From NCBI GenBank assembly GCA_016786485.1, contig JAEUWD010000034.1:62001-126000 (forward strand): a stretch of 64,000 bases of DNA. Direction: 5' to 3'. Positions 3,492 through 60,911 of this stretch are shown piece by piece. A program made the position numbers and the translations under genes. The notes under the pieces are model-generated. The model did no database searches. It was not told the DNA's origin and saw only the letters and a program-made list of their open reading frames with translations. The DNA is from Bacteriovoracaceae bacterium. Lineage in GTDB: Bacteria; Bdellovibrionota; Bacteriovoracia; Bacteriovoracales; Bacteriovoracaceae. Numbering within the stretch: position 1 is the first letter of the stretch; every line of letters begins with the position of its first letter.

Positions 3492-4472
3492 ATGAGAAAT
3501 AAATTTAATATTTTGATGTTCTTTACTTTGTCCGCGGTTTTAGGGACCTATATTCTCTCGAGAAGCTTTAAAAATGAAGCGGGGCCTACAAGTGAGGAAA
3601 TCAAAAAACGCCTCGTTGAGTCAAAAACTGAGTTTGTTGAAATTAAATACTATTTATTTAAGAAGCATCCGGTATTAAAACTCAATGCGGACACGATGGA
3701 TATGACTGGCGAGAAGAAGTTTAGTTTTGATATGCCTCACGGGGCAATCTATGACGAGACTGGTGTGACGCCAATTTTTTTCAGCGCTGAAAGTGGAAAT
3801 TACTCTCAACAAAACCGTTTAATAGCTCTTGAAAATAACGTGCAACTGTCTCGTTTGGGAGCTGAATTTGAGGCCAAATCACTTAAGTACAGCGCCTATC
3901 GTGATAGTTTTTGGGCCTGGGGAAATATTCGTTCGTTGATTCTGGATGTGAAAAGTGGCGATAAATTAGAAATTACCGCAAATGAGGTCCAGGGTTGGCC
4001 ATCGAAAGAGGAATCTTCCTATAAAGGTAACGTCGTCGGTAAGTTATTGAAAAAACGTAAATACGAAACCGGCTTAGATTTTAAGGCGGATGTACTTAAA
4101 GTAAATATGTTGGATTCGCTGGTAACCATGCAAGGTAGCGTAAGGCTTGAAAAACAAAGGTTTAATGTGCAAGCCGGACGGGCCGAATTACTTTTGGAGA
4201 ACTTTAATAAAAAGCTCAAGTATTATGTCCTTTATGACGATATTAGATTGGAAGAGAAACTCACGTTGAGCGATGGCTCGACTTTAGTTAGGAAGGCCTT
4301 CTCTGAGAATTTAGAGGGTTATAACAATGAAGGGAAGATCGTACTTACCGGTGCCCCTCGAGTTATCCAAGGTAATGATGTGATTAAGGGATATAAGATC
4401 ACACTAAGAGAAAACGTGGAAGTGGTGGAAGTAGATGAAGCAAATTCTATTTTTACCATCCAGAAAAATTAG
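3492..4472 (+). CDS. lptC: LPS export protein LptC, apparently fused to an LptA-like domain
   Basis: A 326-residue protein with one N-terminal membrane anchor (residues 5-24), then beta-rich sequence. Residues 40-150 look like LptC (SAESGNYSQQNRLIALENNV). The rest, to about 320, has repeated OstA-type strands (KGNVVGKL, MQGSVRLEKQRFNVQAGRAE, KIVLTGAPRVIQGNDVIKGY), the last resembling LptA. LptC alone is usually near 190 residues, so an LptC-LptA fusion forming part of the periplasmic LPS bridge is inferred. lptB follows after 8 bases with no separate lptA between them. No upstream ribosome site is visible (see promoter entry). Confidence 0.8.
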   Translation: MRNKFNILMFFTLSAVLGTYILSRSFKNEAGPTSEEIKKRLVESKTEFVEIKYYLFKKHPVLKLNADTMDMTGEKKFSFDMPHGAIYDETGVTPIFFSAESGNYSQQNRLIALENNVQLSRLGAEFEAKSLKYSAYRDSFWAWGNIRSLILDVKSGDKLEITANEVQGWPSKEESSYKGNVVGKLLKKRKYETGLDFKADVLKVNMLDSLVTMQGSVRLEKQRFNVQAGRAELLLENFNKKLKYYVLYDDIRLEEKLTLSDGSTLVRKAFSENLEGYNNEGKIVLTGAPRVIQGNDVIKGYKITLRENVEVVEVDEANSIFTIQKN

Positions 4473-55903: not shown

Positions 55904-57469
55904 ATGAAGATTTTGTGGCTGGGATTTATTCTCTCAATCACGTGCGCATATCCTTACACTCAAGATAAAGTTTATAAGATTACAATTCTTCATACCAACG
56001 ATCATCATGGACGTTTCTGGGAAAACAAAGACGGCGAATTGGGCCTTGCTCCTCGCTTAACTTTAATCGAGCAAATTCGTGCTGAAGTTAAAAAAGCTGG
56101 TGGTCACACGCTGTTGCTGGACGCGGGTGATGTGAACACTGGTATCCCTCAATCAGATATGTTGGAAGCGGAGCCTGATTTTAAAGGCATGAAGGTTTTG
56201 GATTACGACGTGATGGCCATCGGAAATCACGAATTTGATCAGCCACTGGATATTATTTTTAAGCAACAAAAGTGGGCAGGTTTTCCCTTTGTGTCTGCTA
56301 ATATTTTTTATCAGAACAAAGATGAACGACCATTTCAATCTCACATTTTTAAAAAAATTGAAGAGCTTAATATCGGAATTATGGGGTTAACAACTAAAGA
56401 CACTCCCATGAAAACCAATCCTAAAAATGTGCGTGGCTTAGTTTTCAAAGATCCAATTGAAGTGGCCAAAAAATTAGTTCCAGAAATTAGAAAACAAGCT
56501 GATGTCATGATAGCGCTAACTCACATGGGTCATTATCCAAACGAATCACATGGAGTTGATGCTCCAGGCGATGTCACTCTCGCACGACAAGTGAATGGAA
56601 TTGATATTATCGTCGGTGGGCACACTCAGAAGCCCTTGTTTGAAGCCGATATTCAAAACGGTACGATCATCGTGCAAGCCTATGAGTGGGGAAAATACTT
56701 AGGGCGAATTGATTTGGAGTTTTTGAACGGAAAATTAACGCTTAAAAAGTATGAGCTACTTCCCATTAACCTTAAAAAGAAAGAAACGGTGAATGGTAAA
56801 GAGGTCGTAACTTATATGGGAACACCGATTAAGCCTGATGTTAAGTTATTGGCGATGCTGGCACCTTATAAAGCTGCTGGTGATAAAACATTGATGGTAA
56901 AGATTGCTGAGAGCGAAGAAACATTTATTGGTGAACGCCATGTGGTGCGTACGCAAGAAACCAATCTTGGGAATATGATTGCACATGCTTATAAAATTTT
57001 TTTCAATGCTGATTTGGCGCTGGTGAATTCAGGTGGTATTCGTTCATCGATAGCTCCTGGTGTTATTAATATGGAAACACTGCTGACGGTTTTGCCTTTC
57101 GGGGGAGAAATTGTGACGATTGAAATGAGTGGCAAAGAATTAACCGAATATCTAAAAAAAGTCGTTTTTGCACCAACAATTGGAACAGGTGGCTTTCCGC
57201 AGTTTTCAGGATTAAAGGTCTCAGGCTCTCTTAAAGATAAATCATTTCATAGTTTATCTATTAATGATAAACCATTGAACTCAGAACATATTTATAAAAT
57301 TGTCATGCCAGAGTTTGTTGCAAAAGGCGGCGATAATTATCCCGTATTAAGTACCTACAAGAAATATGGTTATACCGATGCTGATATTTTTAAGAAATTT
57401 CTATCAGATAAAAAGAAGATTAAAAAAGGTGAGTTTGCAGTTGCAGATTACTTAGACATTAAAAAATAA
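55904..57469 (+). CDS. Exported 5'-nucleotidase / UDP-sugar hydrolase (UshA-like)
   Basis: A 521-residue protein. The signal peptide ends about residue 18. The metal-binding domain has ILHTNDHHGR, LLDAGDVNTG, AIGNHEFD, LTHMGH and VGGHTQKP. The C-terminal substrate domain (from about 335) has ETNLGNMIAHAY and LVNSGGIRSSI. It would release nucleosides and phosphate in the periplasm or outside. Third gene of the operon, 25 bases after the large metallophosphoesterase. Confidence 0.93.
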   Translation: MKILWLGFILSITCAYPYTQDKVYKITILHTNDHHGRFWENKDGELGLAPRLTLIEQIRAEVKKAGGHTLLLDAGDVNTGIPQSDMLEAEPDFKGMKVLDYDVMAIGNHEFDQPLDIIFKQQKWAGFPFVSANIFYQNKDERPFQSHIFKKIEELNIGIMGLTTKDTPMKTNPKNVRGLVFKDPIEVAKKLVPEIRKQADVMIALTHMGHYPNESHGVDAPGDVTLARQVNGIDIIVGGHTQKPLFEADIQNGTIIVQAYEWGKYLGRIDLEFLNGKLTLKKYELLPINLKKKETVNGKEVVTYMGTPIKPDVKLLAMLAPYKAAGDKTLMVKIAESEETFIGERHVVRTQETNLGNMIAHAYKIFFNADLALVNSGGIRSSIAPGVINMETLLTVLPFGGEIVTIEMSGKELTEYLKKVVFAPTIGTGGFPQFSGLKVSGSLKDKSFHSLSINDKPLNSEHIYKIVMPEFVAKGGDNYPVLSTYKKYGYTDADIFKKFLSDKKKIKKGEFAVADYLDIKK

Positions 57470-57593
57470 ATGAATCTAGATTTCTTAATTTTTTTCCCTC
57501 ATCATCATAATAGTTCGAGCATGGGTCATAAACTTGGGCATGAACCCAAGAAGAAAACAAAAGTATAATCAATTTGATTATGAATTTAAGCAT
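57459..57593 (-). CDS. Very small exported protein, 44 residues
   Basis: The frame from ATG 57593 gives a signal peptide (MLKFIIKLIILLFSSWVHA) and a 25-residue mature part (QVYDPCSNYYDDEGKKL...). It starts ten bases after the previous stop, so reinitiation is possible, and no ribosome site is visible. It overlaps the convergent 5'-nucleotidase by 11 bases. It may be a remnant of a longer secreted gene. Confidence 0.4.
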   Translation of the reverse strand: MLKFIIKLIILLFSSWVHAQVYDPCSNYYDDEGKKLRNLDSFIF

Positions 57594-57603
57594 GCTGTTA
57601 ATT

Positions 57604-57924
57604 TTATAGGTAGACAACACTTCCAGTATAACTGCCATCTTTTCGTTCTTCGCCTGTAAATTCATCATCGTTTGTACAGTTTGCAGAAAAGACTACTTTG
57701 CTACGTGCTTTTAAAGAATCTAGGGCATTATATACCCAATCAATGCACTCTTCTTTATTTTTAAATGTCATATTAAATGATCCGGTTGTTTCGCTTGAAC
57801 TTAGATAAGTTGTATTACCAATTTTTTTATCTCTTACTTCGATAAATGGCTTAGTAATGACAACATTCTCCGCATAAGCAGATAGTGAAGTTGAGGCTAT
57901 AAATACTAGCAATAATTTTTTCAT
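57604..57924 (-). CDS. Small secreted protein, 106 residues
   Basis: Signal peptide MKKLLLVFIASTSLSAYA, then an 88-residue mature domain with two Cys (EECIDW, SANCTND) that could form a disulfide. GGAG precedes the ATG by about eight bases. Not recognised. Member of the small-secreted-protein cluster. Confidence 0.75.
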   Translation of the reverse strand: MKKLLLVFIASTSLSAYAENVVITKPFIEVRDKKIGNTTYLSSSETTGSFNMTFKNKEECIDWVYNALDSLKARSKVVFSANCTNDDEFTGEERKDGSYTGSVVYL

Positions 57925-57961
57925 AATTTGCTCCTTTAATTTCAGATATTCCTAATTTGGA

Positions 57962-58201
57962 CTACGGTTTTGTTACGAGAACACAAAATGCCTCAGTTGA
58001 GCCACCATTGTCTACTGAAGTTAAGTCCGTTACAGTTGTAAATCCTTCTTGCTTGGCTTTCTCTATAACGAGGTTAATCGCTTCAGATTTTGTTTTGTTT
58101 TCATCTGACCATCGACCGTTTTCTGTGCAGACAACTTTTGATTCCGTTGCATTGGCCACTGAGAAAATAATTAATAAACCTGTTGTTAATAAAAATTTCA
58201 T
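57962..58201 (-). CDS. Small secreted protein, 79 residues
   Basis: Signal peptide of about 19 residues (ending VANA), mature part of 60 with two Cys (VVCTENG, AFCVLV) and a helix (SEAINLVIEKAKQEGF). The design, one helix between two Cys-bearing strands, resembles the neighbouring 106-residue protein. AGAGG precedes the ATG. Function unknown. Confidence 0.75.
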   Translation of the reverse strand: MKFLLTTGLLIIFSVANATESKVVCTENGRWSDENKTKSEAINLVIEKAKQEGFTTVTDLTSVDNGGSTEAFCVLVTKP

Positions 58202-58275
58202 AATTTGTTTACCTCTTCTTGAGTTTTCATTTTTAGTTTTTAGTTTCTTTCATCAATTCTCAATTGTATCAAAGA

Positions 58276-58890
58276 CTAGAAGTTACAATCCGGCATGCCC
58301 TCAATTGCCAATTCGAGTGAACTTTTAAAGGGAACAGAAGTGTCCAACGAGGCATCGTATTGAGTCAATAAAGAGTCGATCTCGCTGTTTAACTTAACCA
58401 ATTTCCAAGGATCATTTGTGGTCGTCATACGATCTTTTATATCCTGAATGGTATTTAAGACTTTTTTATTTGATTCTGCTACGATAACTTTATTCTTAGA
58501 ACTACTGTTTTCAGGGAATTTTTTTTCCCAAATTACTTTCGTTGCTGGCTTGAAAACAAGAGAGTATTGAATTTTTTTGGATTTTCGATTATTAACCTCA
58601 GCAGACTTCAAGACAAAATCTGCTCTAGTCGATACAATCTTGTATCCTTTTGATTCTTCAATGTAGTTTTGCAATTCAATTGGTATCTTTTTAGTTATTA
58701 TTGTTTTTATAGTCTTAAAACATAAAGTGACGCCGTTAAAAAAGTATAGGTTCTCTTTCCTACACGTATCAAGATTATCACTTCGATAACTTATATATAC
58801 AGTATCTGAGGTACTATCTTGTAAAAAACACGAAGCGAAACTTGAGTGGGCCGTTGCTATTAGTAATCCAAACAAAATAGTGAATTTCAT
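58276..58890 (-). CDS. Secreted protein, 204 residues
   Basis: Signal peptide (1-19, ending SFA), mature part beginning with Cys but without a proper lipobox spacing (SSFASCF), so lipidation is uncertain. Four further Cys, strands in the first half, then helices rich in Lys and Asp. The ATG follows AAAGGAAAA. Not recognised; the longest of the cluster. Confidence 0.72.
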   Translation of the reverse strand: MKFTILFGLLIATAHSSFASCFLQDSTSDTVYISYRSDNLDTCRKENLYFFNGVTLCFKTIKTIITKKIPIELQNYIEESKGYKIVSTRADFVLKSAEVNNRKSKKIQYSLVFKPATKVIWEKKFPENSSSKNKVIVAESNKKVLNTIQDIKDRMTTTNDPWKLVKLNSEIDSLLTQYDASLDTSVPFKSSLELAIEGMPDCNF

Positions 58891-58976
58891 GGTTTTCCTT
58901 TAACGACTTAAGAGTCATTTGTAATTAGTATTTTCTCGTTCTGTCATTTTTATCAAATCGCAGGTCATATAAATGA

Positions 58977-59318
58977 TTAGAACTTAGTCACAAAACATTT
59001 TCCGGCGACATTTCTTCCTGACGGTGGCTCAATATTAAATTGAGGCCAAATATATAGAAAAGCGCGTCCGTTTTCAGATTTTGGCTCAACTTTTAATCCT
59101 ATGAGTTGTGCACCCATTGCAATGTTTAATTTGAAAGTAGAAGTATTTAAGTAGCCAGTACTGCAACTCGAGTCAATAAGATTGTCGTAAAAGCCATTGC
59201 TTATGCGGTCTAGGTCGTCTGGTGAAGTATAGTGGCCAGGTCTTAGATCCTGACCATAGCCGCCTGCAAAAGCTGAGACAGATCCAAGTGCCAATAATCC
59301 AACTAATAATTTTCTCAT
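58977..59318 (-). CDS. Small secreted protein, 113 residues
   Basis: ATG 59318 is chosen because AGGAGT lies six bases upstream and a signal peptide (MRKLLVGLLALGSVSAFA) follows; the open frame runs on upstream without support. Mature part starts GGYGQDLRPGHY and has two Cys. Its leader and signal peptide resemble those of the gene at 59792-60109, while mature parts do not. Function unknown. Confidence 0.75.
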   Translation of the reverse strand: MRKLLVGLLALGSVSAFAGGYGQDLRPGHYTSPDDLDRISNGFYDNLIDSSCSTGYLNTSTFKLNIAMGAQLIGLKVEPKSENGRAFLYIWPQFNIEPPSGRNVAGKCFVTKF

Positions 59319-59418
59319 AAATACTCCTGAGTTTTTACTTAATATTTTCATTTCATGACTTGCGCCGCATTCTTCGTTATTACGCGCAGTCATTGCACCA
59401 AAATTTAGAGCTTTAGAC

Positions 59419-59667
59419 TTATGGGGTTGCAATTTCTTTATTGAAATCGACCACTCCCATTTCTTCAAAAGTAATAACCTTCTCATCAAAATAAACATCT
59501 TTGAGCTTCTTTCGTTCAATATGGAACTTACCACCAACTCCTTTGTGAACTACATAAACCTCTTTATCAACTTCAATACTGCCTAGCTTATCGAAGTTTA
59601 GCTTAGTCTCTCCTTGAGCAAATACATTAAGTGACATGGCAAAAAGTAATCCAATCAAAAATTTCAT
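59419..59667 (-). CDS. Small secreted protein, 82 residues
   Basis: Signal peptide MKFLIGLLFAMSLNVFA, then 65 strand-rich residues without Cys (LGSIEVDKEVYVVHKG, FEEMGVVDF). The site before the ATG is weak (GTGAGAA). A 17-base near-palindrome lies 20-40 bases upstream. Not recognised. Confidence 0.7.
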   Translation of the reverse strand: MKFLIGLLFAMSLNVFAQGETKLNFDKLGSIEVDKEVYVVHKGVGGKFHIERKKLKDVYFDEKVITFEEMGVVDFNKEIATP

Positions 59668-59688
59668 AATATTCTCACGTTTTAAACG

Positions 59689-59739
59689 AATGGTTTAAAT
59701 CCATTCATTGTTTATATTTTCTTTGTTTTAGCGAACAAA
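59689..59739 (-). repeat. Conserved upstream block with palindrome (copy B)
   Basis: AATGG at 59689-59693 and CCATT at 59701-59705 flank TTTAAAT, forming a near-perfect 17-base palindrome. On minus it is preceded by AAAACAAAGAAA and a TATAAA box. The whole block is repeated, with changes, at 60142-60190 before another small secreted gene. It could be promoter plus operator. Confidence 0.55.
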
Positions 59740-59791
59740 CCCATCTTACTCACTATTTCTTTACATTAAAATCTATGCCTCGTTCGATAAC

Positions 59792-60109
59792 CTAGAGTTT
59801 GTTGTTATCTCTTTCACAATTTTTTTTATCTGAAATGGCAACAGAGTTATCAGCTATTACAACATCATAATCACATACCTTCATCTCTCCTTTGTAAGGA
59901 GCATAGACTTGCAAAGAAAAGTGGGCTCTCTGCTGAGTCCCAAATGCACGATATTTTATACCGACAAAACTCATAGAATTCTTATTAATAAACTCGTTAA
60001 ATTCGTTGGAGTTTAATATTTGACTCATGCTACTAGACACTCTCGTACTAAAATCAGCGAAGGCTGAAAGTGAACACAGAGCTACTACTCCGATCAATAA
60101 TTTTTTCAT
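59792..60109 (-). CDS. Small secreted protein, 105 residues
   Basis: Signal peptide MKKLLIGVVALCSLSAFA, mature part of about 87 residues with a helical start (VSSSMSQILNSNEFNEFIN) then strands, and two Cys near the end (KVCDYDVV, KNCERD). The ribosome site is CAGGAG. Leader and signal peptide are similar to the gene at 58977. Function unknown. Confidence 0.75.
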   Translation of the reverse strand: MKKLLIGVVALCSLSAFADFSTRVSSSMSQILNSNEFNEFINKNSMSFVGIKYRAFGTQQRAHFSLQVYAPYKGEMKVCDYDVVIADNSVAISDKKNCERDNNKL

Positions 60110-60141
60110 AAATTCTCCTGGAGCTATCGCTCATTTACTTA

Positions 60142-60190
60142 ATGGTTAAAACCATCATGTTGTTAATATTTCTTTGTTTTATAAGCAAAT
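60142..60190 (-). repeat. Conserved upstream block with palindrome (copy A)
   Basis: ATGGTT (60142-60147) and AACCAT (60150-60155) form a perfect inverted repeat with a two-base centre. On minus it is preceded by AAAACAAAGAAA and TATTAA. It matches copy B at 59689-59739. It lies 33-80 bases upstream of the ATG at 60109. Confidence 0.55.
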
Positions 60191-60209
60191 CTATCAATAT
60201 TTGTAATTA

Positions 60210-60665
60210 CTAATCCTCTAAAATGCAATTAAGGTTTAATTTAATAAGTTCACTTTTAAATGAGTTTACTTTTTTCTTGAACTCAACATTAGCAAGGAAT
60301 TCACCTTTTACATCTGAGTTTAAGACACGTAGGTGGTCGTTAAAATTATCGGCTAGAAGACCTTGTGCTAGTACTTGTTCTGATTGGATTACAATTGGTT
60401 TATGGAGGTTGAATCTTACTAAAATTTGTCCGTTTTGATCTTGGATAATCGTTTGTCCATATTTGCCCACAAGACTTGTGCTAATTCGATCTTCATAATG
60501 AGAAAAGGGTTTAGTAAAAATTCCATTGTCTCGACTTTTTACAAATTGTGCTGCTTCAGAACGTTTGATGAAATATTTTTTACCACTTGTATCCTGACAA
60601 TTTAATAAGTCTGCATGAGCAGAAAGTATCCCCGTAATCATTAATGCAATAAATAATTTTTTCAT
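60210..60665 (-). CDS. Small secreted protein, 151 residues
   Basis: ATG 60665 follows AGGAG; an ATG 45 bases upstream has no site. Signal peptide MKKLFIALMITGILSAHA. The mature part has two Cys (LLNCQDT near the start, LNCILED at the end) that could close the domain, and strands in the middle (TIIQDQNGQILVRFNLH). A short palindrome, GTTTTcAAAAC at 60682-60692, lies just upstream. Not recognised; first of the minus-strand cluster. Confidence 0.75.
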   Translation of the reverse strand: MKKLFIALMITGILSAHADLLNCQDTSGKKYFIKRSEAAQFVKSRDNGIFTKPFSHYEDRISTSLVGKYGQTIIQDQNGQILVRFNLHKPIVIQSEQVLAQGLLADNFNDHLRVLNSDVKGEFLANVEFKKKVNSFKSELIKLNLNCILED

Positions 60666-60835: not shown

Positions 60836-60911
60836 TGGTGGTCAGTACAAGGATTGAACTTGTGACCTCCTGCGTGTCGAGCAGGCGCTCTCCCAGCTGA
60901 GCTAACTGACC
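60836..60911 (-). tRNA. tRNA-Val(GAC)
   Basis: A full cloverleaf on minus: acceptor GGTCAGT/ACTGACC, D-arm AGCTC...GAGC, anticodon stem CCTGC/GCAGG with loop TCGACAC (anticodon GAC), variable loop, T-arm ACAAG-TTCAATC-CTTGT, and encoded ACCA end at 60839-60836. The loop has C, not the near-universal U, at position 33. Confidence 0.95.

Follow-up and report, generated by a model that had tools for sequence, protein, structure and literature searches.

Integron cassette arrays consist of small, mostly unknown, co-oriented genes that lie between structured repeats. Conotoxins and fungal effectors combine a conserved signal peptide with a variable, disulfide-containing mature part and show lineage-specific expansion. 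In ompA-type stabilising 5′ untranslated regions (UTRs), a hairpin is located near the 5′ end. In recombinase-associated acquired interbacterial defence (rAID) arrays of Bacteroidales, short genes share one orientation, the sequences between them carry conserved motifs, and the products are diverse (PMC12247911). Here we describe a cluster of small minus-strand genes in a 64,000-nucleotide (nt) window of a Bacteriovoracaceae genome; all coordinates are positions of this window. The cluster is probably an array of a few leader cassettes, each a standard expression and export unit with exchangeable cargo. In such a cassette, a shared leader would control translation together with transcription, mRNA stability or both; behind it would come a common Sec signal peptide and then a private mature protein, exported to the periplasm or beyond. 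Genes of this type, in the window and in other genomes, are referred to as module genes.

Module arrays resemble each of these systems in part. As in integrons, the genes are small, mostly unknown, co-oriented and separated by structured repeats, but each module gene comes with a leader and start of its own, and the start of the coding sequence is part of the repeat. No integrase was seen near the window, and inspection by eye showed no attC-like site (a dedicated attC search was not made). With conotoxins and fungal effectors, module genes share the conserved signal peptide, the variable disulfide-type mature part and the lineage-specific expansion. However, the signal is of the bacterial Sec type and is preceded by a non-coding leader with conserved hairpins, and relatedness among the mature parts is mostly not shown. 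As in ompA-type UTRs, a hairpin is found near the 5′ end, sometimes with a second one before the ribosome-binding site; in contrast, the module leader is common to many different genes, and its 5′ end is presumed from sequence. The nearest known layout is that of rAID arrays, with the same co-orientation (53/53 adjacent module pairs), conserved intergenic motifs (the leader, a stop-side hairpin termed HA, and CTAG) and diverse products. The system was not described in the literature searched, with subscription literature mostly outside the scope of that search.

Eight minus-strand open reading frames (ORFs; g1–g8, Table 1) follow one another in one orientation from 60665 to 57459, in agreement with the initial annotation, which had counted seven or eight consecutive exported genes. 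Seven encode convincing small exported proteins and the eighth is doubtful; all eight have a Sec-type signal-peptide-like start. The leader and signal peptide that had been noted as shared by the genes at 58977 (g4) and 59792 (g2) were confirmed, and are also present in g3 between them. The mature parts of the window proteins showed no mutual similarity, as the annotation had also claimed. A profile of leader plus signal peptide was searched against the whole window genome and detected g2 (E 8.9e-18), g4 (E 2.9e-14) and g3 (E 1.2e-10), which were in its training set, as well as g7 (E 4.1e-9) and g1 (E 3.5e-6), which were outside it. The likeness of the leaders and signal peptides in the cluster exceeds chance.

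In the aligned copies, the leader starts with an A-rich box (AAAGAAA..ATAAACA), followed by a hairpin (H1), an AA(C/T)CATTA core, TNAATGA, the Shine-Dalgarno (SD) sequence and the ATG, after which comes the near-fixed signal peptide. These blocks are at fixed spacing; because the core served as the alignment anchor, its own invariance is to some extent a product of the alignment. The H1 segment was more stable than dinucleotide shuffles (mean minimum free energy −3.25 vs −1.37, t −10). H1 is formed at about the same place from differing sequences (GGTTT/AAACC, GTTAT/ATAAC, GGC/GCC, GCAAGC/GCTTGC), with AATGG/CCATT arms in the window genome. Some leaders have a second hairpin (H2) before the SD. 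Apart from transfer RNAs (tRNAs), neither the window region nor any of seven array loci gave an Rfam match above the gathering score, and an exact scan of the genome contigs for the core motif, which was too strict, returned zero matches. Two further leaders were noted at other loci. In L040 (G018:C15:138000-146000, about 4107-4190), a leader without coding sequence runs straight into a terminator-like hairpin and a T run, and looks like a relict cassette. In L035 (8560-8670), the leader has a truncated start (short ORF MKKILIKLVSARE), and a second SD with a complete signal peptide comes immediately after it.

The consensus of 116 aligned proteins is MKKLLIGLxxLxSxSSFA, with nothing conserved after it. 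Clustering of the mature parts (phmmer, E<0.01) gave 128 clusters from 154 genes, 104 from 118, and 138 from 169 when other families were added. Global nucleotide identity says little about the mature parts, since random pairs already reach 0.71; local protein scores were therefore compared with those of shuffled sequences. Among pairs whose upstream 180 nt were 82–91% identical, the similarity of the mature parts was inside the shuffled range in 37 of the top 40; leader and cargo therefore evolve separately. Codon identity was 0.535 in the signal peptides vs 0.369 expected from codon usage (0.477 vs 0.464 in the mature control), and the Ser13 codon was AGY in 23/25 genes (P 4e-9). This excess and the serine codon bias indicate that the genes owe their common signal-peptide DNA to descent or conversion. 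Conversely, homologues of some mature parts are found in other genera and families, alongside different neighbouring genes.

The initial annotation had offered duplication with rapid divergence or module swapping as the origin of this pattern. Swapping gains support from the pairs with similar upstream DNA and chance-level mature parts, from the cross-genus homologues, and from arrays that are present or absent at orthologous sites, whereas rapid divergence is weakened as a general cause. The latter would mean that whole genes were duplicated, after which diversifying selection drove the mature parts apart very rapidly, while purifying selection maintained the leader and signal peptide. Such divergence is consistent with the g5 family (g5 and relatives, A6), which is very divergent across genera and keeps little beyond C, KGY, AD and PNC. 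It is also consistent with the weak mature similarity in a few module pairs, and with the ratio of nonsynonymous to synonymous substitution rates (dN/dS) of 0.74 in one recent duplicate pair (dS 0.09). However, dN/dS was 0.21 and 0.15 in the two alignable, homologous mature pairs that come from different genomes and in which dS is not saturated; these pairs are under purifying selection. Moreover, upstream DNA of up to 91% identity beside mature parts of chance similarity would require an implausible contrast in rates. We regard duplication with divergence as an unlikely general explanation.

The cargo itself looks like a set of real exported proteins, as judged from the Cys content of the predicted products and from the dN/dS values of the homologous pairs with unsaturated dS. 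The number of Cys residues is even in 148 of the 154 mature parts, being exactly two in 87 and exactly four in 45, whereas it is odd in 44% of cytoplasmic and 14% of other exported control proteins from the loci. DsbA-family genes are present, and the mature parts would usually contain one or two disulfides. The annotation's statement that no known family is represented also held: no window protein matched a known family above the curated cut-off, and 116 proteins compared with Pfam, NCBIfam, PHROGs and PADLOC gave no convincing family, only scattered single weak hits (the best Pfam match was SH3_3, E 3e-4, in one protein). For g2 and g5, only marginal homologues were found in 129 family genomes. 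The g5 pattern C...KGY...AD...P[DN]C is shared with module genes of other genera; a KGY...AD motif was considered as a unifying fold and rejected, being present in only 6/121. The g5 family matched the TraT profile weakly (E 0.54). Structure prediction, which the annotation had suggested as a check, was run on g1 and g5 and was uninformative: the AlphaFold model of g1 carried no information and that of g5 was of low confidence, both too poor for a structure search.

Six strong loci are present in the window genome, in two clusters (the window and contig C17). At E<=0.001 the profile matched 109/115 family genomes, many of them weakly, with E from 1e-22 to 1e-14 in many genomes; at E<=1e-7 it matched 44/291 phylum genomes, other families included. 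The signal-peptide DNA pattern was found in 14 stretches among 84,980 species, with titles of Bacteriovoracaceae, Bacteriovoracia, Halobacteriovoraceae or Oligoflexia, and one Pseudobdellovibrionaceae. The number of loci at E<=1e-5 was 50 in genome G018 and seven in its congener G073. Two G018 arrays sit between genes whose orthologues adjoin in G073, that is, they are missing from the orthologous sites; for the first array, one flank was assigned by position only, as the neighbouring large genes were without BLAST match.

Gaps between adjacent module genes are mostly 150–210 nt. In several other genera, the preceding gene's stop codon is followed by HA. The five inner pairs of HA, which were not used for anchoring, had 87% paired cells vs 62% after shuffling (maximum 69%), and as many as four pair types occurred at a given position; because MAFFT left the HA arms out of register, pairing was scored with a script from each of the two anchors. 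The stop codon is, or sits just before, CTAG in 82/146 genes, compared to a background of 4–9%. A tRNA was found within 1.5 kilobases of 5/68 clusters; about 0.6 would be expected under an assumed tRNA density, and this association is only suggestive.

The likeness to rAID arrays (PMC12247911) raises the possibility of an acquired interbacterial-defence-like array of orphan immunity proteins that act against exported toxins. The co-oriented short genes and conserved intergenic elements match that layout, export would suit toxins acting in the periplasm, and tyrosine recombinases or resolvases lie next to some arrays elsewhere, including three integrases beside one G018 locus. A recombinase is, however, not obligatory in module arrays, and none was found beside the window or C17 cluster. 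The module products are predicted to be exported, mostly with 2 or 4 Cys, and no known immunity family was found among the 116 proteins, although orphan families would escape such scans. In addition, the conserved region runs through the signal-peptide coding sequence, which is outside the rAID description used (PMC12247911). This explanation seems to us slightly less likely still than duplication with divergence. Convergence of unrelated exported genes in AT-rich genomes, through simple signal peptides and A-rich leaders, is very improbable. In its favour are the many weak matches (below ~30 bits in the window genome), which are ordinary SD and signal-peptide starts; against it speak the fixed spacing of the blocks (though measured with the core as anchor), the clade-restricted signal-peptide DNA pattern, the excess codon identity and serine codon class, and the 82–91% identical upstream regions.

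Several mobile or repetitive neighbours of module genes were observed at other loci. Integrases, resolvases or conjugation genes adjoin some module genes, though none of those in the window. In L038 (G018:C19, 312-3450), three tandem tyrosine recombinases (Phage_integrase), like those of recombinase-in-trio elements, lie beside two module genes. An orthologous integrative element in two genera (L043, G015:C67, 5897-12000; L108, G073:C19, 5366-11001) has a recombinase and a TraG-like coupling protein, and its flanking module genes carry different cargo in each. Four large exported proteins in tandem adjoin module genes in L039 (G018:C12, 1597-8697), the first being a BspA-type leucine-rich repeat protein. 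AAAGATA tandem repeats are found at contig ends beside module genes (L034, 1-110, and the end of L149).

An array of leader cassettes is thus the explanation that we favour, but a number of observations weigh against it. Within the window, the full leader is limited to g2, g3 and g4, HA is absent from the intergenic regions, and g5, g6 and g8 were undetected by the leader plus signal-peptide profile. Training and testing of this profile overlap for part of the gene set, and its low-scoring members may be ordinary exported genes. Pairing of H2 in a fixed register was not clearly above that in shuffles, and H2 is therefore not claimed to covary. The A-rich box, core and H1 may be promoter DNA or leader RNA. 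Replacement of one cargo by another between identical flanks is inferred, and expression and secretion of the cassettes are predicted from sequence. If the array is made of leader cassettes, the leader would act as one expression unit, and new cargo would enter through homologous recombination, with leaders or stop-side elements as the sites, together with horizontal transfer.

Table 1. Cluster features in the window; bits, score of the leader plus signal-peptide profile.
Feature	Position	Strand	Description	Bits
tRNA-Val (GAC)	60836..60911	-	upstream end of cluster, same strand	
g1	60210..60665	-	151 aa, predicted exported; 2 Cys near both ends of mature part	28.3 (weak leader match)
Leader of g2	60110..60184	-	A-rich box ACAAAGAAATATTAACA, H1, AACCATTA core, H2, SD AGGAG	
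H1 of g2 leader	about 60160-60138	-	ATGGTTTTAACCAT	
H2 of g2 leader	60132-60121	-	GAGC-GATA-GCTC	
g2	59792..60109	-	105 aa, predicted exported; signal peptide MKKLLIGVVALCSLSAFA; 2 Cys in mature part	65.5
Leader of g3	59668..59790	-	promoter-like spacing TTGTTC-N16-TATAAA; H1	
H1 of g3 leader	about 59709-59685	-	GAATGG-ATTTAAA-CCATTC	
g3	59419..59667	-	82 aa, predicted exported; signal peptide MKFLIGLLFAMSLNVFA; no Cys	42.6
Leader of g4	59319..59393	-	strong hairpin ATGACTGCGC..GCGCAAGTCAT (about 59393-59355), AATATTAAGTAAAAACT core, SD AGGAG	
g4	58977..59318	-	113 aa, predicted exported; signal peptide MRKLLVGLLALGSVSAFA; 2 Cys in mature part	54.2
Palindrome upstream of g5	58902..58919	-	AATGACTCTTAAGTCGTT, by direct reading; placed like H1, sequence different; not detected by leader model R1	
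g5	58276..58890	-	204 aa, predicted exported	
g6	57962..58201	-	79 aa, predicted exported; 2 Cys	no leader match
g7	57604..57924	-	106 aa, predicted exported; 2 Cys	37.7
g8	57459..57590	-	43-aa ORF, signal-peptide-like start; doubtful gene	

The cluster is flanked by a 5′-nucleotidase gene on one side and by the tRNA-Val and an ABC transporter gene upstream, with g1 starting ~170 nt downstream of the tRNA. The 3′ end of the plus-strand 5′-nucleotidase gene (55904-57469) is overlapped by g8. The stop codon of g2 is the TAG within CTAG, and that of g5 the TAG within TTCTAG. A longer form of g4 in the ORF list, with a start at 59537, was judged not to have the likely start. In g7, which starts only ~37 nt after g6, the model detects the SD and an MKKLL-type signal peptide (model positions 40-127). 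Over ~100 nt, the leader of g3 resembles a contig C17 leader of the same genome, which precedes an unusually large exported protein of 309 aa (L005, 6007-6936).

The effector or prey-interaction role put forward in the initial annotation is plausible for a predatory clade, although immunity or other roles would fit the predicted proteins equally. A prey- or competitor-facing role is attractive because the clade is predatory, and we rank such a secreted repertoire as the likeliest use, at roughly even chances; an orphan-immunity or self-protection repertoire ranks next and is improbable by comparison. On the favoured reading, the repertoire would face other cells.

In mostly uncultured relatives of predatory bacteria, more than 100 small exported proteins of predicted disulfide type, mostly unrelated, are encoded behind one standard leader. 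We tentatively propose that small, unrelated disulfide proteins are captured and swapped by a self-contained structured leader with its signal peptide, through recombination at leader and stop-side elements; this would generate lineage-specific secreted repertoires in this predatory clade. The covarying stop-side hairpin HA is a candidate new RNA element, and the leader model together with the signal peptide provides a sequence handle for cataloguing the repertoire across all genomes of the phylum. If the proposal is true, it would explain how the clade keeps making orphan secreted proteins, with a fixed expression and export start being reused while the cargo changes, and the question whether these proteins are prey-directed, defensive or self-protective would become directly testable.
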